64,000 nt of DNA from the NCBI RefSeq assembly GCF_030811555.1, contig NZ_JAUSQZ010000001.1:3221241-3285240 (forward strand), in the 5' to 3' direction. Numbering within the stretch: the first letter of the stretch is position 1; the number at the start of each line of letters is the position of its first letter. Source of the stretch: Kineosporia succinea. Its GTDB lineage: Bacteria > Actinomycetota > Actinomycetes > Actinomycetales > Kineosporiaceae. Position numbers and translations under genes: made by a program. The notes beneath the pieces were generated by a model. The model saw only the letters and a program-made list of their open reading frames with translations, had not been told where the DNA came from and searched no databases. Below are positions 31,704 to 44,334 of the stretch, piece after piece.

Positions 31704-34310
31704 CTACTTCTCCGTCCGCAGCCGCAGCTCGCGGGGCATGCGCAGGGTGAGCAGGTTGGTCACGTCCTGCGCCGACATCGGGCGGGCGATCGCGTGACCC
31801 TGCACGGCGTCCGCGCCGATCCGCCGGGCTCCCTCCAGCTGGCCGGAGGTCGAGACCGACGCGCAGATCACCTGCAGGCCGAGCGAGTGGCACAGCTGGG
31901 CCGCGGCCCGGGCCACGTCGTCACCCTCGCCGGTGCCGTCGAGCTCGGTGGCCAGCCGGCCGTCGAGCTTCACCGCGCTGATCGGCAGCCGGCGCAGCAT
32001 CGTCAGTGAGGTGCCGCTGGTGCCGAAGTCGGCCAGCGCCACCGAGATCCCGAGCGAGCGCAGCATCCCGAGCGTCACCAGGGCCTGCTCCGACTCCACC
32101 AGCTGCCCGGCGCCGACCTGCAGCACCAGCGACGCGGCGGACAGGCCGCGGATGGCCAGCTGGGCCGCCACCTCGTGGGCGAAGTCCGCGTCCTCGAGCT
32201 GGGCCGGAGACAGGCTGACCCAGACCTGCTCGACGTCCACGCCCTCGTGCCGCCAGATCACCAGCGCGGCCAGGGCCCGGTTGATCGTCTGCAGGCCGAG
32301 CGTCACGCCCAGGCCGAGTTCGTCGGCCAGCGGCACGAAGGTCTCCGGGGAGACCACCACCCCGTCCTGGCGCCGCCAGCGCGGCAGGGCCTGCGCCCCG
32401 GCGATCCGGTCGTCGTCGTCCACCCCGGTGCCCAGGGCCAGCAACGGCTGGAAGTCGACCTCGATCAGGCCCATCCGCACCGCGTGCCGCAGCTCCTGCT
32501 CCAGGCCGGCCCGCATCAGGCTGCGCGCCCGCTCGGCCCGGTCGAACATCGCCCACCGGCCGCGGCCCCCGCGCCGGGCCGCGCGCACGGCCTCGTCGGC
32601 GGCCTGCAGCAGGTCCTCGGCGGTGATCAGGCCCGGCCCGGAGACCGCGCCCCCGAGCGAGCAGGACAGGCTGAGCTCACGGGCCCCGGCCAGCACCGGC
32701 TCGTCCATCAGCCGGGAGATCACCCGGGCCACGTCGGCGCAGGTGTCGGCGTTCGGCGGGAGGACGTCGTCGGTGACGACCACGGCGAACTGCCGGCGCG
32801 CCACCCGGGCCACCAGGTAGCCGTCGAAACCCTCGGCGATGCGCAGGCCCACCTGGGTGGCCAGGTCGTCGGCGACGGTCGCGCCCAGGCTGTCGGCCAG
32901 GTCGTCGAAGCGGTCGAGCTCGGCCAGCACCAGCCCGACCGGCGGCGGGGTGCTGCCGTGGGTGAGCGGGTCGGCGGTGGACAGGGTCAGGGCCAGGGCC
33001 CGCAGCAGGCCGTCGCGGTTGGGCAGCCCGGTCGTCGGGTCGATCGACGAGGACGCGGCCAGCGCGGCGGTCTCGGCGCGGGCCCGGCGCTCGCCGGCCT
33101 GGGCGGCGGAGGCCGCTCCCGTCAGGCGTCGGCGGGTGGTCGTGGAGGTCAGGCCGACCAGGGCGGCCACCAGAACGCCGGAGCCGAGCGCGATCTGGAT
33201 GCCGACGGCCGGGTGGTTGCCCGGGTCGGCCAGCAGGTGCAGCACCCGGCCGGGCCCGTCGGACAGGGTGCGTCCGGTCAGGGCCCCGGCCAGCGAGAGC
33301 ACGGCCAGGCCGGTGACGAGCCAGCCGGCCACCGGGCCGACCATCAGCGGGTACGAGGCCACCGTGCCGAGGGCGATCACCAGCGAGACCGGGGTCATCG
33401 CGGAGTCGAGCACGGGCAGGGCGGCGGCGGTGCCGAGCAGGGCGGCGGCGCGCAGCACCCGGGCGGTGGTGAAACCGGGCAGCAGCAGCGCCAGCAGGCC
33501 GGCGGCGGGCACGGCGGCGAGGGCCAGCCAGACCGCGGGCGGTGCGGCGACGGCCCAGGCGGTGGCCCCGGCGATGAGCGAGAGGACGAACGTGAGCAGG
33601 GCTTCGGGGACGCGGCGGGGTTCGGTGACGGGGCGCGTCGCGGCCGGGCGGGCCGGGCTCAGGTCGACGTTGGCCCCGGCCTGGTCCGGTCCGGCCAGGG
33701 TGGTCCGGGTGATGAGACGCAGCCCGGTGCGCGGGGTCTGCGGGCCGGCCTGCCCGGCCTGCCCGAGCTGCCCGGACGTGGGGTCCGGCGGCGGCAGCAC
33801 CGGGTGGTGGATCAGCTTGGGGCCGTCGGACAGGTCGATCGCCATCGCCACGGGCTGGTCCCACTCGGCGGTGTCGTCCCGGTTCTCCTCGGGAGTCCCG
33901 TCCTCGGGAAGGTGACCCAGGAGCCGTGCCGCCGAAACGTCCTCAGGTGTGCCGGGTTTCTGCCGACCGGAGGCGGGACGCGGCCGGGGGAGGCCGCCGC
34001 GGACGGTGCCGGGCCGGGTCACCCCGAACGTCAGGGTGTCGAAACCGCACTCGCCGGACCGGGACTCGCCGTCGCGCAGCGGGTTGGGCACGGCCAGCGG
34101 AGGCGTCAGCAGCTTGTCGCCGTCGTGGTGGGTCACGGGTCCGCGAGCGCCGCGACCCGCCCGCCGCAGCCGGGCCCGCACCCGGGCACCGCGCCGTCTC
34201 CAGCTCCGCGACCGCCGGGACACCGCGGAGCCGCCGAACCCACCGCCGGGGCGCGCCGCGAGGTCGTCGCCCGCGGGCTCGCCGCCGGTGTTGGCTCCGA
34301 GAAGCGTCAT
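31704..34310 (-). CDS. Membrane GGDEF-EAL protein with both active sites degenerate
   Basis: An 868-aa protein: about 210 residues of Arg/Pro/Gly-rich, probably disordered sequence; several membrane segments (about 225-385); a GGDEF-type domain (about 420-590); and an EAL-type domain (about 605-860). The GGDEF signature is ARRQF (504-508), lacking the GG and acidic residues needed for diguanylate cyclase. The EAL signature is QAL (640-642), and the DDFGTGYSS motif reads ADFGTSGTS, so metal ligands are missing. It probably binds a ligand or partner rather than making or breaking c-di-GMP. ATG 34310 has GGGAGA before it; a GTG at 34343 is an alternative. Confidence 0.85.
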   Translation of the reverse strand: MTLLGANTGGEPAGDDLAARPGGGFGGSAVSRRSRSWRRRGARVRARLRRAGRGARGPVTHHDGDKLLTPPLAVPNPLRDGESRSGECGFDTLTFGVTRPGTVRGGLPRPRPASGRQKPGTPEDVSAARLLGHLPEDGTPEENRDDTAEWDQPVAMAIDLSDGPKLIHHPVLPPPDPTSGQLGQAGQAGPQTPRTGLRLITRTTLAGPDQAGANVDLSPARPAATRPVTEPRRVPEALLTFVLSLIAGATAWAVAAPPAVWLALAAVPAAGLLALLLPGFTTARVLRAAALLGTAAALPVLDSAMTPVSLVIALGTVASYPLMVGPVAGWLVTGLAVLSLAGALTGRTLSDGPGRVLHLLADPGNHPAVGIQIALGSGVLVAALVGLTSTTTRRRLTGAASAAQAGERRARAETAALAASSSIDPTTGLPNRDGLLRALALTLSTADPLTHGSTPPPVGLVLAELDRFDDLADSLGATVADDLATQVGLRIAEGFDGYLVARVARRQFAVVVTDDVLPPNADTCADVARVISRLMDEPVLAGARELSLSCSLGGAVSGPGLITAEDLLQAADEAVRAARRGGRGRWAMFDRAERARSLMRAGLEQELRHAVRMGLIEVDFQPLLALGTGVDDDDRIAGAQALPRWRRQDGVVVSPETFVPLADELGLGVTLGLQTINRALAALVIWRHEGVDVEQVWVSLSPAQLEDADFAHEVAAQLAIRGLSAASLVLQVGAGQLVESEQALVTLGMLRSLGISVALADFGTSGTSLTMLRRLPISAVKLDGRLATELDGTGEGDDVARAAAQLCHSLGLQVICASVSTSGQLEGARRIGADAVQGHAIARPMSAQDVTNLLTLRMPRELRLRTEK

Positions 34311-34449
34311 GGTGTCTCCCTGCTGGCCGCCTGCGCGGGTCACCCGGACGGGCGAACGCTGTTGGGCTGTGCTTCGGCAGCGGGCGGGGAGATCTTGAAG
34401 TCCGGGAGCAGGTTCAGGGCGGGTGCACAGGCCGGGCTACCCTGGAACG

Positions 34450-35627: not shown

Positions 35628-36806
35628 TCAGGTTCCTTCCAGGATCTTCGTGATCGCCGCACGGTCCGGTTTACCCGGGCCGCGCAGAGGTAGGTGCTCC
35701 AGCACCACCAGTTGCCGAGGTGCCGACCGGGCGGACAGTTCGTCGGTGACCCGCGCCCGGACCTCGGCCAGGGTAGGGGCTGACGCGCCCGGCGTGAGCA
35801 CGAGCGCCGCGGCCACCCGCTGCCCCCACTCCGGGTCCGGCACGCCTACGACGACCACCTCGGCCACACCGGGCATCCGGTGCAGGACGTCCTCCACCGG
35901 GCCGGGGGCGATGTTGACGCCGCCGCTGATGATCATCGAGTCGAGCCGGCCGGTGACGACGAGCCGGTCGTTCTCCCAGTAGCCGTGGTCGTTGGTGATC
36001 ACGCGGCGGTCGGTGAAGGGCGCTCCCAGGTAGCCGCGGGCCACGGTGGGGCCCCCGATGACGATCCGGCCTCGTTCCAGCTCCACGGTCACGCCGTCGA
36101 GCGGCACCCCGTCGTACACGCACCCGCCCGCGGTCTCGCTCATGCCGTAGGTGGTGACGAGACGCGCGCCGGACCTCTCCAGCAGTGCCGGGTTCACGGC
36201 CGAACCGCCCACCAGCACCGCGTCGTACCGGCGCAGCGCCTCGGTGGCCTCGGGATCGTCGAGGATGCGGGTGATCTGGGTCGGCACCAGGGAGGTGTAG
36301 AGCCGCCGGCCCCGCAGCCGACGGGTGGCCTCGGTGAATCCCCGGGCGGTGAACCCGTCGTTGAGGTCCATCACGACGGGCGTGGTGCCGGCGACCAGCG
36401 AGCGCACCAGCACCTGCATCCCGGCGATGTGCTGGGCGGGCAGGGCGAGCAGCCAGCGGCCGGCTCCGCCGAGCCGGTCGTGGGTGGCGGCGGCGGACGC
36501 GAGCAGGGCCGAGGCGGACAGCAGAACCCGCTTGGGGTCGCCGGTGGAACCGGACGTGCGCACCGAGACGGCGGTGGGGTCGGTGGGGTCGTCGTCCGCC
36601 CCGAGGAGGGGCACGGCGGGCCCGACGGCATCCAGAACGCCACCGAGGGTCGATCCTGAGTGACTTTGGGGAACTTCGTCGCTGAGCGCAAGGGCGGGAC
36701 CACTGCCCGAAAGAGCCGCCCGCAGGTGCGTCAGGACCCCCAATATTCGGTCGTCAGCGCAGGTCAGCCGGGTTTCGAGGATGCGTGGAGAGGTCCCGGA
36801 GGTCAC
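35628..36806 (-). CDS. menE: o-Succinylbenzoate-CoA ligase
   Basis: Activates o-succinylbenzoate with ATP and CoA for MenB. The 392-aa AMP-forming ligase has the P-loop region VRTSGSTGDPKRV, TYGMSETAGG (adenine site), and the hinge/C-terminal lid VTGRLDSMIISGGVNI. It is shorter than typical acyl-CoA synthetases but normal for actinobacterial MenE. The GTG at 36806 has TACCCT on the minus strand (36818-36813) 6 nt upstream, predicting leaderless translation. Operon with menA. Confidence 0.94.
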   Translation of the reverse strand: MTSGTSPRILETRLTCADDRILGVLTHLRAALSGSGPALALSDEVPQSHSGSTLGGVLDAVGPAVPLLGADDDPTDPTAVSVRTSGSTGDPKRVLLSASALLASAAATHDRLGGAGRWLLALPAQHIAGMQVLVRSLVAGTTPVVMDLNDGFTARGFTEATRRLRGRRLYTSLVPTQITRILDDPEATEALRRYDAVLVGGSAVNPALLERSGARLVTTYGMSETAGGCVYDGVPLDGVTVELERGRIVIGGPTVARGYLGAPFTDRRVITNDHGYWENDRLVVTGRLDSMIISGGVNIAPGPVEDVLHRMPGVAEVVVVGVPDPEWGQRVAAALVLTPGASAPTLAEVRARVTDELSARSAPRQLVVLEHLPLRGPGKPDRAAITKILEGT

Positions 36807-36884
36807 CTCGGCAGGGTAAGCGGTGACCGGATCGGCCAGCGCGGCAGGTTCCCCAGACGGTCAGTAAGTGGCAGGCTGCTGCTC

Positions 36885-38210
36885 GTGCATTCCGTGGAAC
36901 AGGCGCTGGCTGCAATCGGCCGCGCCGAACCCGAGGTGGCCGAGGACGCTCGGGCGGCTTGGGACTCGCTGACCGGGGGTGAGGGGCCCGAGTCGGTGAC
37001 GCAGTGGCGGCTCCAGCAGTTCTGCTGGGACGAGCTGAACCGATCGTGGATGTCCGACGCGGCGGGTCGCTGGCGGGTCGCCACCGCCCTGGCCGCGCTG
37101 CTCGACGGTCTCAGCATGCAGCGCTACGCGGGCATCGCCCGCAGCGACACCACTCGCCAGATCCTCTTCACCGGTGACCAGGCGCCCGACCGGGGCCGCA
37201 CCGTGGTGCGCCGGGCGATGCAGCGCTCGGGCATCGAGCCGCCCGACACCGAGCTCCTGACCTGGGGCGCGATCATGGGCACGGCCGAGTCGCAGGCCCG
37301 CGAGGCCGTCGCCGACCGGCTCGAGATGGCCGTGGCGGTGGGCGATCTGCAGCCCGGCACCCGCGGCTGGCGGGACTCGCAGGCCGAGATCACCCTGAAC
37401 GTGCTGCTGTCGCCGCGCCTGGACCTGTCCGGAGAGGCCCTCTACGACCAGATCCTCGACGAGCGTCTCGACGACTGGATCCGCGGCCCCCGTTCCACCA
37501 CGCGCGGCGGTCTGCTGGCCCCGCTCGAGACCAGCCTGCGCGAGAACGTCGACCCGGGCATGGCCGCCCCGGCCCGCGCCCTGCTGCGACCCCTCGACTG
37601 GCTGCTGACCGAGATCGGTGACGGCCTGGCCCTCACCGCCGCCGGCTACCTGCCGCCGCGCACGGTCTCCCGCGCGCTCGACGAGCTGGGCTGGCGCGAC
37701 GAGCTGATCGGCCCGGCCAACCGCGAGGTCGACGCCTACCCGGTGCTGGTGCTGCGCGAGACCGCGCAGCGCCTGGGCCTGTGCCGCCGCCGCGCGTCCC
37801 GTCTCACCCTGACCCCGAGCGGCCGGGCCGCCCTGGCCGACGGCCGCACCCTCTGGCAGGCCGTGTCCGCCGGGCTGGTCGGTCCCGAGCACTCCGCCCT
37901 GGCCGTGGCCTGGGAGGTCGTGCTGGCCGTGCTGGCGCCGGGCGACGTGGTCGGTGAAGAAGACGTGCGCACCCTGGTGCAGGCCGTGATCACCGAGTCC
38001 GGCTGGCGGGTGGCCGGCCGCCGCACGCCGAGCGAGAGCGACACCAGCGCCCTGTTCTTCGCGGTGCTGCGTGAGCTGCGCTGGATGGAACTCGTCGAGG
38101 AGTCCGGCGCCCTGCTCGACCGGCAGCTGCGGGCCCGGGCCGGCGCCGCCGACCTGTTCCGCGCCGCGCTGCGCCACCGGGTGCTGCACCGCGACATCGT
38201 GCCCTTCTGA
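36885..38210 (+). CDS. Conserved hypothetical protein
   Basis: A 441-aa soluble protein I do not recognise with confidence. The stretch around residues 245-325 (LLTEIGDGLALTAAGYLPP..., ...RRASRLTLTPSGRAALAD) resembles a segment found in uncharacterised actinobacterial proteins, some with pRiA4b-like domains, and looks like a winged-helix arrangement. No catalytic motif or membrane segment is seen. The frame is open upstream to 36660 across the menE 5' end; GTG 36885 is chosen because that extension is antisense to menE and CAGGCT (36872-36877) lies 7 nt before it. Divergent from menE. Confidence 0.7.
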   Translation: MHSVEQALAAIGRAEPEVAEDARAAWDSLTGGEGPESVTQWRLQQFCWDELNRSWMSDAAGRWRVATALAALLDGLSMQRYAGIARSDTTRQILFTGDQAPDRGRTVVRRAMQRSGIEPPDTELLTWGAIMGTAESQAREAVADRLEMAVAVGDLQPGTRGWRDSQAEITLNVLLSPRLDLSGEALYDQILDERLDDWIRGPRSTTRGGLLAPLETSLRENVDPGMAAPARALLRPLDWLLTEIGDGLALTAAGYLPPRTVSRALDELGWRDELIGPANREVDAYPVLVLRETAQRLGLCRRRASRLTLTPSGRAALADGRTLWQAVSAGLVGPEHSALAVAWEVVLAVLAPGDVVGEEDVRTLVQAVITESGWRVAGRRTPSESDTSALFFAVLRELRWMELVEESGALLDRQLRARAGAADLFRAALRHRVLHRDIVPF

Positions 38211-38219
38211 CACCTGCCC

Positions 38220-38269
38220 GACGCGTTAGACCGGCCCTGCGACGCGTCGCAGGGCCGGTCTAACGCGTC
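38220..38269. terminator. Perfect 50-bp palindrome, bidirectional terminator
   Basis: Two 25-bp arms (38220-38244 and 38245-38269) are exact reverse complements with no spacer. It lies between convergent genes, and its right arm contains the last codons and stop of the giant minus-strand gene. With no T-run, it would act as an I-shaped terminator in both directions. Confidence 0.85.
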
Positions 38270-41200
38270 AGGAAGGCCGGGATCTCCTCCGGCGGCAGCG
38301 GCCGGGCGAACCAGTAGCCCTGCCCCGTCTCGCATCCCACGTCGCGCAGCAGGTCGGCCTGGGCCTCGCTCTCGATGCCCTCGGCGGTGGTCTCCAGCGA
38401 CAGGATCCGGGCCAGGTCGACCACGGTACGCACGATCGCCAGGTCCTCCTCCACCGTCTCGATGTTGTCGATGAACGACTTGTCGATCTTCAGCTTGTCC
38501 ACCGGGAAGCGCCGCAGGTACGACAGCGACGAGTAGCCGGTGCCGAAGTCGTCGATGCCGACCTGCACCCCGAGCCGCCGCAGCTCCGACAGCTGCGCGG
38601 TGATGCCCTCCGGATCCTCCATCAGCACAGTCTCGGTGAGCTCGAGGGTCAGCGCCGACGCCGGCAGACCGGTCTCGGCGAGCGTGGCGATCACGTCCTC
38701 GGCCAGCCGCCCGTCGGTCAGCTGCCGGGCCGAGACGTTGATGTTGAGCCCGAGGTCGGGCTGCGCGTGACGGCGCCAGGCGGCCACCTGGCGACAGCTG
38801 CGGGCCAGCACCCAGCGCCCCATCTCGACGATCACCCCGGTCTCCTCGGCGATCGGCACGAACGCGGCCGGCGAGATCATCCCGCGCTCGGGGTGCCGCC
38901 ACCGGATCAGCGTCTCCACGCCCAGCGGGACCCGCCGGGACAGGTCCATCAGCGGCTGGTAGACCAGCTCGAACTGGCTCTCCGCCAAGGCCTTGCGCAG
39001 GTCGCCCTGCAGCTCCAGGCGGTCCCGCGCGTCCGCCTGCATCCGCGGCTCGAACACCACCGCGCGCCGGCTGCCGTTCTTCTTCGCCTGGTACATCGCC
39101 AGGTCGGCCTGGCGCAGCAGCTCGCCGGTGCCGTGCCGGTCGGCGTCGCCGTGGGCCACCCCGACGCTGGCCGACACGAACAGGTCGCGCCCGGCGAGCC
39201 GGATCGGCCTCGACAGGGCCGCCGTGATCCGCTCCGCCGCCCGCAGCGCCGGACCCGACCCCCGCGTCCGCTCCATCAGCACCGCGAACTCGTCGCCGCC
39301 GAGGCGGGCCACGGTGTCGCTCTCCCGGATGCAGTCGCGCAGCCGCCGGGCCACCTCGGCCAGGAGGTCGTCCCCGGCGCCGTGCCCGAGCGTGTCGTTC
39401 ACCGCCTTGAACCGGTCCAGGTCGATGAACAGCACGCTCACCTCGCCGGCGTCCTCCCGGGCCAGTGCCTCCTTCAGCCGGTCGAGGAACAGCGTGCGGT
39501 TGGCCAGGCCGGTCAGGGAGTCGTACGAGGCCTCGCGGATCGCCTCCAGGGTGGTGGCGTCGTTCAGGGCCAGGCTGACCTGCTCGGCGAACGCGCCCAG
39601 CAGGTCCTGCCGCCAGTCCGCAGACCCCGGCCGCGACGCCGTGCTCGTCACCAGGCTGCCGATGATGCGCCCGCTGACGTGCACCGGGGCGGCCATCAGC
39701 GTCACCTCACCGGCGGAGGTGACCAGCTCGTCCGCCTCGATCGCGTCCGTCGCCGTCCGCAGCACCCACTCGTCGGTCTCCACCCCGGCCCGGTGACCGC
39801 TCACCGAGGGGATGTTCGGGCGTCCGTCGTGGTCCGGGTCGAGCAGCACCAGTGCCACGAACGCACCCTCGAGCATGCCCGAGGCGCCCTCGGTGACGGC
39901 GTCCATGACCATCTGCAGCGGCACCCGGTGCGCGATGTCCCGCTGGATCGCCAGCAGTGTCTCCAGCAGGCGCTCCCGCTGCCGCACGGCCTGCAGCAGT
40001 GATTCCCGTTGCCGCGCCTGCAGTTCGCTGTGCCGCCGGGCCCGGGCGTTGTCGAACGACACCGCCAGCTGCCCGGCGATCAGCCGCACCGCGTCCAGCC
40101 GGGCCGGTGAGAAGGCGTTGCCGTGCAGGTGGTTCTCGAGCACCAGCACCAGCCGGGGCTCCCCGCCCGAGCTGATCGGCACCACCATCAGCGCGCAGCG
40201 GGGCAGCCCGGCCAGGTGCGGGTCGGCGCTGAACCGGTCGTCGCGGGTGGCGTCGGCCACCAGCAGCGGCTCCCCGGTGCGCTCGGCGTACCGCACCGCC
40301 GAGACCGGGAACCCGGAGGTGGGCCACTCGCCGTCGGTGAGCAGGATCGTCACGTCGGTGGCGCCGGTCATGGCGGTCAGCACCTCCACGACCCGGGCGT
40401 GCAGCGCCTCGAAGGCGGTCTCCCGGCCGATCGCCTGCGAGGCCGAGAGCACCCCGAGAAGGTCCACGGCGTCACCGGTCTCGTCCGAGGTGACCACCTC
40501 GTCCACACTCAGCGGCGGCCGTTCGGGCAGGGCCGTGCGCAGGTCCGGGTAACGCCGGCGCAGCTGTTCCACCTTGGCGTCGGCGCCCCAGGCCCGGTAC
40601 GCGTCGCGGGCCAGGGTGAGCATCGCCCGCGAGCCGTACGTGTGCCCCTGCGCCTCGCGGAACATCCCGGCCCGCTCGAGCACCAGCGCCCGGTGCCAGC
40701 CGCGGTTCGGCGGCGTGGTCAGGATCGCGTCGTCGAAGTGCTTCATCGCGGCGGTCAGATCGCCTGCGGCCCAGGCGGTCTCGGCGTCCAGCCAGGTGAC
40801 CAGGTGGCCGAAGCCGGAGGGCAGGTCGTGCGCCCGCCGGGCGAGCCACTCGCGGCTGGCCCGGAGACTCTCGGGGTCACCGCCGTGCGAGAGCGACAGG
40901 GCGTTCAGCAGGTGCGCCTGCGAGGCCGCGTAGGTGCTCTCCAGGAACGCGAACATCGGCATCACCCGGCCCAGTTCGGCCCGCAGTGACTCCGGGGAGC
41001 CGAGCAGGGCGGCGTGCAGCGCGCCCAGCAGGTGGTGGTTGACCTGGGCGGCGGGCACGCTCAGCGTGAGGTCGGGGAACGGGGCCCCGCGCAGCGCCTC
41101 GACCAGCGACCGGTGGCTCAGGATCAGCTGCCGGGCCTGGTCGTTGCTCATCCGGGCGGCCAGCGCGAGCCCCTGGTCGACGACCGAGAGCAGGCCGCCC

Positions 41201-44200
41201 AGGCTCAGCCCGAAGTCGAGCATGCTCGAGCACAGCGTGCTGTAGCTGAAGGCGGCCGACTGTGGCTCCCCGCCGCGCAGCAGCCCGGACTCGGCCTGCT
41301 GGAGGTCGGCGATCGCGGCCTGGAGCGGCTCGAACCAGGGCCGGGCGGTGGCCCCGCACAGGAACCGGGCGTACGAGGTCTCCGGCTCGTAACCGCGTTC
41401 GGCGCTGACCGCGAGAACCCTGGTCACCACGCGGTATCCGGTGCGGAAGTCACCGGCCCGGCCGATCGTCAGCAGGGCCGCGTGCGAGAGCGCCTCGACC
41501 AGGGCCCGCAGCGGGCCGTGCTCCTGCCACATCTTCTGGGCGGTCAGGATCAGCCAGCCGAGCAGGTCGTGGTCGGCGAAGTAGGCGGTGTGGTTCAGGC
41601 GGCGCAGCACGTCGGCGCGGGCCCGCACCACCGGGTCGGTGCTCTCGTCCCGAAGGAGTTCCGCGGAGTCGGCCCAGGCCGTGAACTCCGGCAGCCCGGC
41701 GCTGATGATGCCCACCAGCTCGTCCGGGGGAGGGACCGGCAGACCGAGCCGGCCGAGCTGCTCGCGTCCCAGCGTGATCGCCTCGTGCACCCGCCCGCGG
41801 TTGGTCAGGGCGGCGATCTGCAGGCACACCGCGTCGTTCAGGCGCAGCGGGTCGTCGCAGCGCTGCCGGGCCGAGGCGAACAGGCGGTCCATCGCGTCGA
41901 GTTCGCCCAGCCCGTACACCGTGGCGTGCCGTTCCAGGGCCAGCCTCAGCAGCAGCTCGTCGTCGGTCTGCGAGTCGGTCAGCAGCTCTTCCCCGGCCGC
42001 GTAGAACCGTTCCGCCGAGCTCGGATTCGTCACCCGCACGGCCGTCCCGGCCCGTTCCAGCAGGTGCGCCGCGCGCCGCCGCTCGGCCGGGTCGGTCAGC
42101 TCGGGCAGGGCCGCCACGTACTGCGCGGCGGCGGTGGTCAGGTGCCGGGGATCGGACGCGAGGCGGTGGGCGATGGTCAGGCTCAGCAGCCGGGTGGCAT
42201 CCTCGCCGAGCTGCTCGCGCACCAGCCGGCGGCTGCGCTCGTGCCGGAAGCGCACGGTCGCGTCGCCCTCGGCCTCACCGGTCGTGGTCATGATCAGGCC
42301 CTCGGCCAGCGCCGGCTCGAGCCGTTCGTCGAGGTCCTCCACGCTCATCCCGGCCGCGGTGGCCAGCACACCCAGTTCGCTGCGCCGCCCCAGCCCGGCC
42401 AGCACCTCGAGCACGGCCACGGTCGGGTCGGGCAGTGTGCGCAGCCGGGCGGCCAGCAGGTCGCCGTTCTCCCCGCCCACCAGCCGGCCCCGCACGGCCG
42501 TCGAGTCCCAGGTCCAGCCCGACTCGCCCAGGAGCAGCGACCCCTCGGTGCGCAGGGCGTTGAGCAACTCGATGGTCTCGTAGGGGTTGCCCCGGGTGCG
42601 GGCACCGACCACGTCAGCCAGCCGGGCGGCCTCGCGGCGCTCGAGCCGGAGCATCTCGCCGAGCATCTCGGTCAGGTCGTCGCGGCCCAGGTTCTCCAGG
42701 CGCACGGCGGGCGGCCAGAGCCCGAGCTGGCTCCAGCGCGCGACCATCGAGCCGATCGTGGGCCCCGGGTCGTCGTCGCGCAGCGCGCCCACGATCAGCA
42801 GGCCGTCGATCTCGCCGCCGGTCAGCACGGCGTCGATCAGGCCGAGCGGGAAGGGCGCCGCCCACTGCAGCGAGTCCAGCACCATCACCACCGGCCGGCT
42901 GCGGGAGGCCGTGGCGCGCAACAGGTCGAGGGCGCTCTGCCGGGCCCGGCTCTGGATCTCCAGCGGGTCGCCGAACGGTGGGTCGCCGGGCACTCCCAGC
43001 ACCGGCGCCAGGTCGGGCACCAGCCCGGCCAGCAGCGACGCGTTGCCGCCGAGCATGCTGCGCATCCGCTGACGCTGCTCGATCAGGGCGCTCTCGGGCT
43101 CGGCCAGCAGCAGCCGGCCCAGCTGCCCCAGGGCCTCGACCACCGCGTTCGAGCGCAGGTCGGACTCGGAGGCGTCGAAGGTGCCGGAGATGAACCAGCC
43201 GCCGGCCGAGGCCACGGTCGGGCGCAGCTGGTCGATGAGCGACGTCTTGCCCACCCCGGCCCGCCCGGTGACGAGGATCCCGGCGGTGCCGCCGGAGCAG
43301 ATCCCGGTGAACGCCGCCCGCAGCCGGGAGATCTCGGGGTCCCGGGCGAAGAGCCGCGCCGGCCCGGTGAGCTGGTGCGGGAAGTCGCGGTCGCCGAGCG
43401 CGAACGGCCGGATCGGGGCCAGCTGCCGTCCGCCGTGCCCGCCGCCGGCCTTCACCATCTCCTGCCGCAGTCGTCGCAGGTCGTGCAGCAGCCCGGCCGC
43501 GCTCTGGTAGCGCCGGCCCGGCTCCTTCTCCAGCAGCTTGGCCACGATGTCCGAGAACGGACGCGGCAGAGCCGGGTTCAGGACGGCGACGGGGGTGGGC
43601 AGGCGGGCCAGCTGGTCGCGCATCAGGCCCAGCGCGTCGGCCTCGCCGCGGCCGAACGGGGGCTCACCGGTGCACAGCTCGTGGATCACGACGCCGAGCG
43701 TGTAGAGGTCGGCGCGCTGGTCGACCGGCTGGGCGGTGCGGCCGGTCTGCTCCGGGGCCAGGTAGACCAGGCGCTGGATGAGCGAGTTGCTGTGCGAGTA
43801 GCCGGGCTGTTCGCCCGAGAACAGGGTCGCCCGGTCGAAATTGACGATGAAGGGCCGGTTCTGGGGAACGCTGAGCAGGATCACCTCGGGGCTGAGGTCA
43901 CTGTGCACCACACCCCGCCCGTGGATCTCGGTGAGCAGCGCGGCCAGGTCGACCACCACGTCCACCAGGGCCGGGACATCGAGGTGCCACTTCGGGCTGC
44001 GCATCAGGCCGCGCAGCGACTCACCGCGGAACGCGCGCACGTGGTAGACCGTGCCGGTCGCCGGGCCGACCAGCTGCGGCACCCCCGGGATGCCGCGCAG
44101 GCGGTCCATCACGGCCGCCGAGTGACGCGCCCGCAGGGCGGCGTTGACCCCGCGCATCTCCCGGCGGATCAGCGCGTCGTCACCCGTCCCGATCCGGGTG

Positions 44201-44334
44201 ACCCGGCCGAAGCGGTCGTCGTGGATCAGGATCTCGCCCGGTGCCAGCCCGGCCGCGGGCTCCGGCGGCCGTTGCCCCGGAACAGCCCCGTCGGCCCGGG
44301 TGTCCCTGCCGCTCCCCGGTTCCGTGTTCGTCAT
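38260..44334 (-). CDS. Giant pseudokinase-AAA ATPase-GAF-GGDEF-EAL protein
   Basis: A 2,024-aa multidomain signalling protein. In order: a Ser/Thr-kinase-like domain (about 35-300) that keeps the catalytic-loop Asp (HSDLSP, D146) but has NFD (165-167) where DFG should be; an AAA/STAND-type ATPase (about 325-620) with Walker A GRAGVGKTS (K363); a long helical TPR-like region to about 1,320; two GAF-like domains (about 1,330-1,480 and 1,510-1,640); an intact GGDEF domain (LGGDEF, 1679-1683); and an EAL-type domain (ETL, E1807; DDFGTGYSS present). The loss of DFG suggests a pseudokinase, while the c-di-GMP domains look active. ATG 44334 has GAGG upstream; a TTG at 44394 is an alternative. Confidence 0.88.
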   Translation of the reverse strand: MTNTEPGSGRDTRADGAVPGQRPPEPAAGLAPGEILIHDDRFGRVTRIGTGDDALIRREMRGVNAALRARHSAAVMDRLRGIPGVPQLVGPATGTVYHVRAFRGESLRGLMRSPKWHLDVPALVDVVVDLAALLTEIHGRGVVHSDLSPEVILLSVPQNRPFIVNFDRATLFSGEQPGYSHSNSLIQRLVYLAPEQTGRTAQPVDQRADLYTLGVVIHELCTGEPPFGRGEADALGLMRDQLARLPTPVAVLNPALPRPFSDIVAKLLEKEPGRRYQSAAGLLHDLRRLRQEMVKAGGGHGGRQLAPIRPFALGDRDFPHQLTGPARLFARDPEISRLRAAFTGICSGGTAGILVTGRAGVGKTSLIDQLRPTVASAGGWFISGTFDASESDLRSNAVVEALGQLGRLLLAEPESALIEQRQRMRSMLGGNASLLAGLVPDLAPVLGVPGDPPFGDPLEIQSRARQSALDLLRATASRSRPVVMVLDSLQWAAPFPLGLIDAVLTGGEIDGLLIVGALRDDDPGPTIGSMVARWSQLGLWPPAVRLENLGRDDLTEMLGEMLRLERREAARLADVVGARTRGNPYETIELLNALRTEGSLLLGESGWTWDSTAVRGRLVGGENGDLLAARLRTLPDPTVAVLEVLAGLGRRSELGVLATAAGMSVEDLDERLEPALAEGLIMTTTGEAEGDATVRFRHERSRRLVREQLGEDATRLLSLTIAHRLASDPRHLTTAAAQYVAALPELTDPAERRRAAHLLERAGTAVRVTNPSSAERFYAAGEELLTDSQTDDELLLRLALERHATVYGLGELDAMDRLFASARQRCDDPLRLNDAVCLQIAALTNRGRVHEAITLGREQLGRLGLPVPPPDELVGIISAGLPEFTAWADSAELLRDESTDPVVRARADVLRRLNHTAYFADHDLLGWLILTAQKMWQEHGPLRALVEALSHAALLTIGRAGDFRTGYRVVTRVLAVSAERGYEPETSYARFLCGATARPWFEPLQAAIADLQQAESGLLRGGEPQSAAFSYSTLCSSMLDFGLSLGGLLSVVDQGLALAARMSNDQARQLILSHRSLVEALRGAPFPDLTLSVPAAQVNHHLLGALHAALLGSPESLRAELGRVMPMFAFLESTYAASQAHLLNALSLSHGGDPESLRASREWLARRAHDLPSGFGHLVTWLDAETAWAAGDLTAAMKHFDDAILTTPPNRGWHRALVLERAGMFREAQGHTYGSRAMLTLARDAYRAWGADAKVEQLRRRYPDLRTALPERPPLSVDEVVTSDETGDAVDLLGVLSASQAIGRETAFEALHARVVEVLTAMTGATDVTILLTDGEWPTSGFPVSAVRYAERTGEPLLVADATRDDRFSADPHLAGLPRCALMVVPISSGGEPRLVLVLENHLHGNAFSPARLDAVRLIAGQLAVSFDNARARRHSELQARQRESLLQAVRQRERLLETLLAIQRDIAHRVPLQMVMDAVTEGASGMLEGAFVALVLLDPDHDGRPNIPSVSGHRAGVETDEWVLRTATDAIEADELVTSAGEVTLMAAPVHVSGRIIGSLVTSTASRPGSADWRQDLLGAFAEQVSLALNDATTLEAIREASYDSLTGLANRTLFLDRLKEALAREDAGEVSVLFIDLDRFKAVNDTLGHGAGDDLLAEVARRLRDCIRESDTVARLGGDEFAVLMERTRGSGPALRAAERITAALSRPIRLAGRDLFVSASVGVAHGDADRHGTGELLRQADLAMYQAKKNGSRRAVVFEPRMQADARDRLELQGDLRKALAESQFELVYQPLMDLSRRVPLGVETLIRWRHPERGMISPAAFVPIAEETGVIVEMGRWVLARSCRQVAAWRRHAQPDLGLNINVSARQLTDGRLAEDVIATLAETGLPASALTLELTETVLMEDPEGITAQLSELRRLGVQVGIDDFGTGYSSLSYLRRFPVDKLKIDKSFIDNIETVEEDLAIVRTVVDLARILSLETTAEGIESEAQADLLRDVGCETGQGYWFARPLPPEEIPAFLTR

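Follow-up and report, generated by a model that had tools for sequence, protein, structure and literature searches.

A Kineosporia protein with a putative pseudokinase, an ATPase module and a GGDEF-EAL output

A gene of Kineosporia succinea in the stretch of DNA analysed here (the window; 64,000 nucleotides) encodes a protein of 2,024 amino acids (aa) that begins with a kinase-like domain and ends with GGDEF and EAL domains predicted to synthesise and break down cyclic di-GMP (c-di-GMP). Among the residues of an active Ser/Thr kinase (beta3 Lys, HRD Asp and DFG Asp), the HRD Asp alone is kept. What can such a kinase domain contribute to a second-messenger enzyme? The answer we favour, with moderate confidence, is that the protein is soluble and serves c-di-GMP turnover in Kineosporia, that it is probably of kinase-ATPase-GAF descent, and that a GGDEF-EAL cassette was swapped into it; its pseudokinase would signal by conformation. 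The domains, residues, constraint and trees described below were computed; from them we infer enzyme activities, ATP binding, hydrolysis state, the direction of control and a zoospore role.

Domain layout and conservation

The gene lies on the minus strand as one open frame with its ATG at 44334 (the plus-strand reading has stops), in a genome represented by one 8.07-Mb contig. A first-pass annotation, made from the letters alone, had proposed this frame without naming a strand, and had read from it the order kinase, ATPase, two GAF domains, GGDEF and EAL. Both proposals were borne out. The residues it cited (D146, NFD 165-167, K363, GGDEF 1679-1683 and E1807) all stand at those positions, and in a hidden Markov model search with Pfam every domain scored over its cut-off: Pkinase at 118-281 (55.2 bits, cut-off 31.7), AAA_16 after the kinase at 327-515, two GAF stretches of which the best covers 1313-1426 (57.5 bits), GGDEF at 1602-1756 (156.4 bits) and EAL at 1778-2012 (249.7 bits). 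The features are given below; row counts refer to an alignment of 117 kinase-AAA proteins described later.

38260..44334, minus strand: entire gene, encoding 2,024 aa; 4 of the 5 other Kineosporia genomes searched have an orthologue of full length
43462..44253, minus strand: kinase domain, residues 28-291; bilobal fold predicted complete, catalytic residues degraded
44161..44163, minus strand: R58 at the beta3 Lys position, aligned with the Lys of relatives; Arg in 5 of 5 orthologues
43897..43905, minus strand: HSD, residues 144-146, at the HRD position, with Asp kept
43834..43842, minus strand: NFD, residues 165-167, replacing DFG; found in the five orthologues and in no other of the 117 rows
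42790..43356, minus strand: AAA_16 ATPase, residues 327-515; Pfam 83.7 bits
43243..43266, minus strand: Walker A GRAGVGKT, residues 357-364; Lys in 116 of 117 rows
42871..42882, minus strand: Walker B VLDS, residues 485-488; Ser replaces the second acid
40465..42654, minus strand: long region, residues 561-1290, with no Pfam family; TPR-like by analogy only
40057..40398, minus strand: GAF domain, residues 1313-1426, by Pfam
39565..39972, minus strand: second GAF-like region, residues ~1455-1590, placed by us, as the Pfam coordinates cover the better stretch only
39067..39531, minus strand: GGDEF domain, residues 1602-1756; motif 1679-1683, RxxD 1670-1673
38299..39003, minus strand: EAL domain, residues 1778-2012; E1807, N1866, E1898, D1928, D1929, K1949, E1985, E1988 and Q2005, aligned to PDB 4rnh

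No Pfam family was found between AAA_16 and GAF, and no solved structure matched residues 300-1295 by sequence at E 0.1. By hydropathy scan alone, a strong transmembrane stretch was absent: the best 19-residue mean was 1.605, with one segment just above 1.6.

Full-length orthologues, 75.6-78.2% identical over residues 1-2024, were found in four of the five other Kineosporia genomes searched, and the fifth (G002) lacks the gene. Because these four orthologues exist and all carry NFD, a chance frame and a frameshift or sequence error are both ruled out. All five orthologues (the window protein and the four) have single open frames. Among them, the ratio of nonsynonymous to synonymous differences (pN/pS) was 0.224 in EAL, 0.287 in the kinase C-lobe, 0.363 in GGDEF and 0.411 in AAA, with the weakest constraint in the N-lobe (0.483) and region 561-1290 (0.557).

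Kinase, ATPase and output residues

In all five orthologues the beta3 Lys is replaced by Arg, the catalytic-loop Asn by Val or Thr and DFG by NFD, while the HRD Asp is kept. NFD pairs without gaps with the DFG of PknB, and a displaced but intact DFG was seen neither in the PknB alignments nor in the family alignment. The predicted structure is a complete bilobal kinase fold of high confidence; the C-lobe is under strong constraint, and NFDRAT is invariant among the orthologues. The domain thus seems to be a pseudokinase that has lost its phosphotransfer residues and kept its fold. The first-pass annotation had suspected as much from DFG alone, and its suspicion is strengthened by the joint change of beta3 Lys, catalytic-loop Asn and DFG Asp. 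It had also proposed a structure prediction and a survey of homologues for NFD; the former gave the bilobal fold and the latter found NFD in the five orthologues only. A defence system was considered and rejected: the PADLOC matches listed (25) all fall within residues 57-317, the kinase domain.

In the ATPase module, the Walker A motif GRAGVGKT is intact. Instead of the two-acid Walker B of STAND/AAA_16 ATPases, all five orthologues have Asp-Ser, a pair found in 6 of 117 rows (the sixth is the truncated L216), and 104 rows have Asp-Asp, the pair that paralogue L138 also carries. The second Walker B acid is required for ATP hydrolysis. ATP binding by the module is therefore plausible, but hydrolysis is doubtful and may be slow or absent. 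If an ATPase sensor controls the c-di-GMP level, as was first suggested, it would be one that lacks the second Walker B acid in the orthologues.

At the output end, all seven GGDEF-EAL proteins of our survey retain the GGDEF motif together with its metal residues and RxxD. Nine EAL positions, among them the E, N, E, DD, K, E, Q set that we take to be the catalytic residues, are the same in six of the seven; L139 has E1988 replaced by T. The closest solved structure for the tail is PDB 4rnh, 'Motility regulator' (413 bits), presumably MorA; the likeness lies in the GGDEF-EAL tail, to which the comparison was confined. The earlier call of an intact GGDEF and an EAL-type domain therefore held, with the catalytic residues kept in the window protein, and the two domains look able to make and break c-di-GMP.

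Relatives and the origin of the GGDEF-EAL ending

Kinase-AAA proteins were searched for in 38 relatives (own genome included), in two sets of genomes from the phylum (396 and 346), in 349 and 60 genomes around a Caenimonas, 151 around a Chloroflexi genome and 199 around a Bacillus genome, and in 8 single genomes. From the 38 relatives, 20 loci were chosen from the matches listed, where further long frames of the same family were also present. We took 16 of 19 loci from the 346-genome search (two of the rest came from the own genome), 42 of 45 from the 349, 9 of 9 from the 60, 9 of 13 from the 151 and 23 of 25 from the 199. Loci unique to the 396-genome search lie outside the sample, L149 and L243 have no row, and Cyanobacteria are represented by two plasmid loci only. 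Because the search model was seeded with Kineosporiaceae, the survey is biased towards that family and its percentages are not natural frequencies. A kinase was scored as degraded if it lacked K, D or D at three MAFFT columns, gaps counting as lost, which touches L190 and 7 rows of the class 'other'.

The 117 proteins (the window protein and 116 frames) comprised 7 ending in GGDEF-EAL, 26 in GGDEF alone, 74 other and 10 truncated. The GGDEF-EAL members (the window protein, L130-L133, L138 and L139) all come from Kineosporiaceae; 14 of the GGDEF-only proteins belong to that family and 12 lie outside it. The kinase was degraded in 7/7 GGDEF-EAL, 1/26 GGDEF-only, 42/74 other and 5/10 truncated proteins, so that 25 of the 26 GGDEF-only relatives keep all three residues. 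Degraded kinases thus occur often across the wider family too, and it is the difference between the two GGDEF groups that is striking. Kinase-ATPase-GAF proteins were present in every group sampled. Pfam assigned HATPase_c to 52 of 107 tails, GGDEF to 33, Guanylate_cyc to 14, EAL to 7 and GerE to 5. The first-pass view that such proteins usually end in a histidine kinase thus holds in that this ending is the commonest, but GGDEF is not rare in this biased sample, where 7 of the 33 GGDEF tails also carry EAL.

In a 31-row tree the five orthologues join paralogue L138 (100/100); the next to join are proteins ending in GGDEF alone whose kinase residues are intact (L136 at 82/76; L134 and L135 at 88/79). 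L139 is placed elsewhere, near L208 and L209 (82/70). A single origin of the GGDEF-EAL ending was rejected by an approximately unbiased test (p 2.46e-7), although the long branch of L139 calls for caution, and a 117-row tree agrees on two origins. At the kinase positions, L138 reads V, HRC, T and DFT and L139 reads E, HRG, H and GLR; the kinases therefore differ in how they broke.

A tree of the GGDEF domain alone, in which L005 and L006 duplicate L020 and L019, placed all seven in an 18-row group of mostly free GGDEF-EAL proteins (Shimodaira-Hasegawa-like approximate likelihood ratio test, SH-aLRT, 91, not starred), and 25 of the 26 GGDEF-only kin in a 39-row group (SH-aLRT 96, starred); the one outside it, L163, has a long branch. 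All seven proteins that end in GGDEF-EAL have the motif GGDEF, and 25/26 of the GGDEF-only kin have GGEEF. Because of this grouping and motif split, the most likely history is that a whole GGDEF-EAL cassette was swapped in for an older output; the same tree disfavours the simple appending of an EAL domain to the old GGDEF.

In G002 the flanking genes are joined directly (L255 15104-16884), and the luciferase-like neighbour matches at residues 250-330 only. Given this junction and remnant, deletion of the gene from that genome is most likely.

Other relatives were also recorded. The own genome encodes two kinase-AAA-GAF-GGDEF proteins with intact kinase residues (L019 and L020, G000:C1 near 5731612 and 5070913) and a frame of about 2,000 aa that ends in GGDEF-EAL and has no kinase-domain match to the profiles used (L021, G000:C1:2908000-2917500). 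The comamonad Caenimonas (G429; L024, L166, L167 and L168) has five kinase-AAA proteins, two of them adjoining, which nest in an otherwise Kineosporiaceae clade (100/100, 31-row tree). No other kinase-AAA protein as close was found among the 60 genomes around Caenimonas, and this looks like transfer between phyla.

Interpretation, known systems and genome setting

In the reading that we favour, the ancestor would be a kinase-ATPase-GAF signalling protein whose older output was replaced by the GGDEF-EAL cassette, with a kinase that lost its phosphotransfer residues and retained its fold. Input and assembly would be the task of a platform formed by the pseudokinase and the STAND-like module, which would bind ATP. 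A nucleotide, ligand or partner that binds to this platform and to the GAF domains may alter a dimer or oligomer, and the altered assembly would shift the balance between c-di-GMP synthesis by GGDEF, with its RxxD inhibition site, and breakdown by EAL. The signal would travel by conformation without phosphorylation, binding events and not phosphotransfer controlling c-di-GMP. Several points weigh against this reading. Some residual catalysis is conceivable because D146 is kept and the third DFG position holds an acid (D167). The structural comparison (Foldseek VIA-align) has a list filled by kinase chains and so covers the kinase part only. The groups in the GGDEF-domain tree rest on a single domain, and some are not starred. 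Finally, the absence from G002 indicates that the gene is dispensable.

Many composite GGDEF-EAL proteins have been described as showing one dominant activity, and it is possible, if on the improbable side, that the window protein is chiefly a phosphodiesterase with a GTP-binding regulatory GGDEF, or the reverse, its N-terminal half serving as a localisation scaffold. EAL is indeed the most constrained domain, but GGDEF is constrained too and keeps its motif, metal residues and RxxD in 7/7 proteins. It is unlikely, in our judgement, that the acquisition of GGDEF-EAL itself removed the need for kinase activity. The kinase would then have worked with a GGDEF-only output until a self-balancing GGDEF-EAL output arrived, and would have become a nucleotide- or partner-binding pseudokinase at least 2 times; in Kineosporia, where the Walker B acid was also lost, c-di-GMP would be set by a double sensor of nucleotides, able to bind them but not to cycle. 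Since there are only two origins, a link between kinase degradation and EAL cannot be proven.

Distinctly unlikely is a kinase that remains active by an unusual arrangement, with D146 as base, D167 as metal ligand in place of the DFG Asp and R58 in place of Lys, and that phosphorylates itself or a partner. The retention of D146 in all five orthologues, the complete predicted fold and the constraint on the C-lobe with its invariant NFDRAT are consistent with activity, as is an acid in the third place of DFG, which 14 of the 15 rows in the protein's own clade have, versus 5 of 102 outside it. However, three nucleotide/metal residues are altered together in 5/5 orthologues, the GxGxxG loop is absent from the aligned N-lobe, and in paralogue L138 it is the HRD Asp that was lost. 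The loss of several nucleotide-handling residues, and of the gene in one species, might suggest that only the C-terminal half is still useful and that the kinase and ATPase next to it are decaying remnants; this is very improbable and largely refuted by the single open frames in 5/5 orthologues, the low pN/pS in the kinase C-lobe and AAA, and the high-confidence kinase fold.

Kinase-ATPase-GAF pseudokinases and kinase-TPR-GGDEF fusions are already published. The former belong to the named class CP1, (pseudo)kinases fused to a COG3899 ATPase with GAF or PAS, of which ~40% have degraded catalytic motifs and which are mainly cyanobacterial and proteobacterial, according to O'Boyle et al. 2025 (PMC12599244). 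The window protein resembles this description of soluble proteins with a kinase, a predicted ATPase, GAF and often degraded motifs: it shows kinase residue loss, no transmembrane region in the hydropathy scan and two GAF stretches. The domain that follows its kinase is AAA_16, which may or may not be the COG3899 ATPase of that class. It differs in its ending, as the words GGDEF and diguanylate are absent from the main text of PMC12599244. A Clostridium thermocellum protein of 1,826 aa with a kinase, 6 TPR and GGDEF, described in 2005, shares the N-terminal kinase, long middle and C-terminal GGDEF, but neither EAL nor a pseudokinase is mentioned in the text available (PMC1262709). The cyanobacterial dual kinases cbSTKIII are kinase-GAF-HisKA proteins (PMC2176072); our examples, L260 and L261, share the kinase-AAA_16-GAF order but end in a histidine kinase and have the aligned DFG and beta3 Lys. 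The 14 Kineosporiaceae proteins L019, L020, L134-L136 and L140-L148 have the same architecture up to GGDEF, but 14/14 keep Lys, HRD Asp and DFG Asp, with GGEEF and no EAL. In the literature searched, which left most subscription journals outside its coverage, we found no characterised kinase-AAA-GAF-GGDEF-EAL protein and no kinase-AAA-GAF protein with a GGDEF end put to experimental test. Nor did any mention turn up there of such a protein with a GGDEF-EAL ending, of the two origins of that ending, of its occurrence alongside degraded kinases or of the Walker B change.

Two neighbours of the gene were examined. A convergent gene at 36660-38210 (plus strand) encodes 516 aa with no Pfam family; its true start may be near residue 69-76, where most matches begin. 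It is present in 11/11 Kineosporiaceae genomes searched, at 92-96% identity in Kineosporia and 68-77% in other genera, and its conservation is similar to that of the enoyl-CoA hydratase neighbour (93%). Four genes away, at 31704-34343 (minus strand), lies a second GGDEF-EAL protein of 879 aa, syntenic in K. rhizophila and K. babensis (63-66%), both of whose active sites are degenerate by eye (RRQF for the GGDEF end, QAL for EAL and ADFG for DDFG).

The source genome has 80 GGDEF domain matches and two flagellin matches. According to PMC10746217, actinobacteria have 0 to 80 GGDEF proteins per genome, with an excess in zoospore-formers; our count equals that maximum, although domain and protein counts differ. 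Because of these matches and the published excess, we would guess at a role in zoospore motility. Kineosporiaceae offer a matched series, with intact kinase residues beside GGDEF in one group and a degraded kinase beside GGDEF-EAL in the other. Comparing the two groups could reveal the role of the kinase part and whether a pseudokinase steers a second-messenger enzyme.

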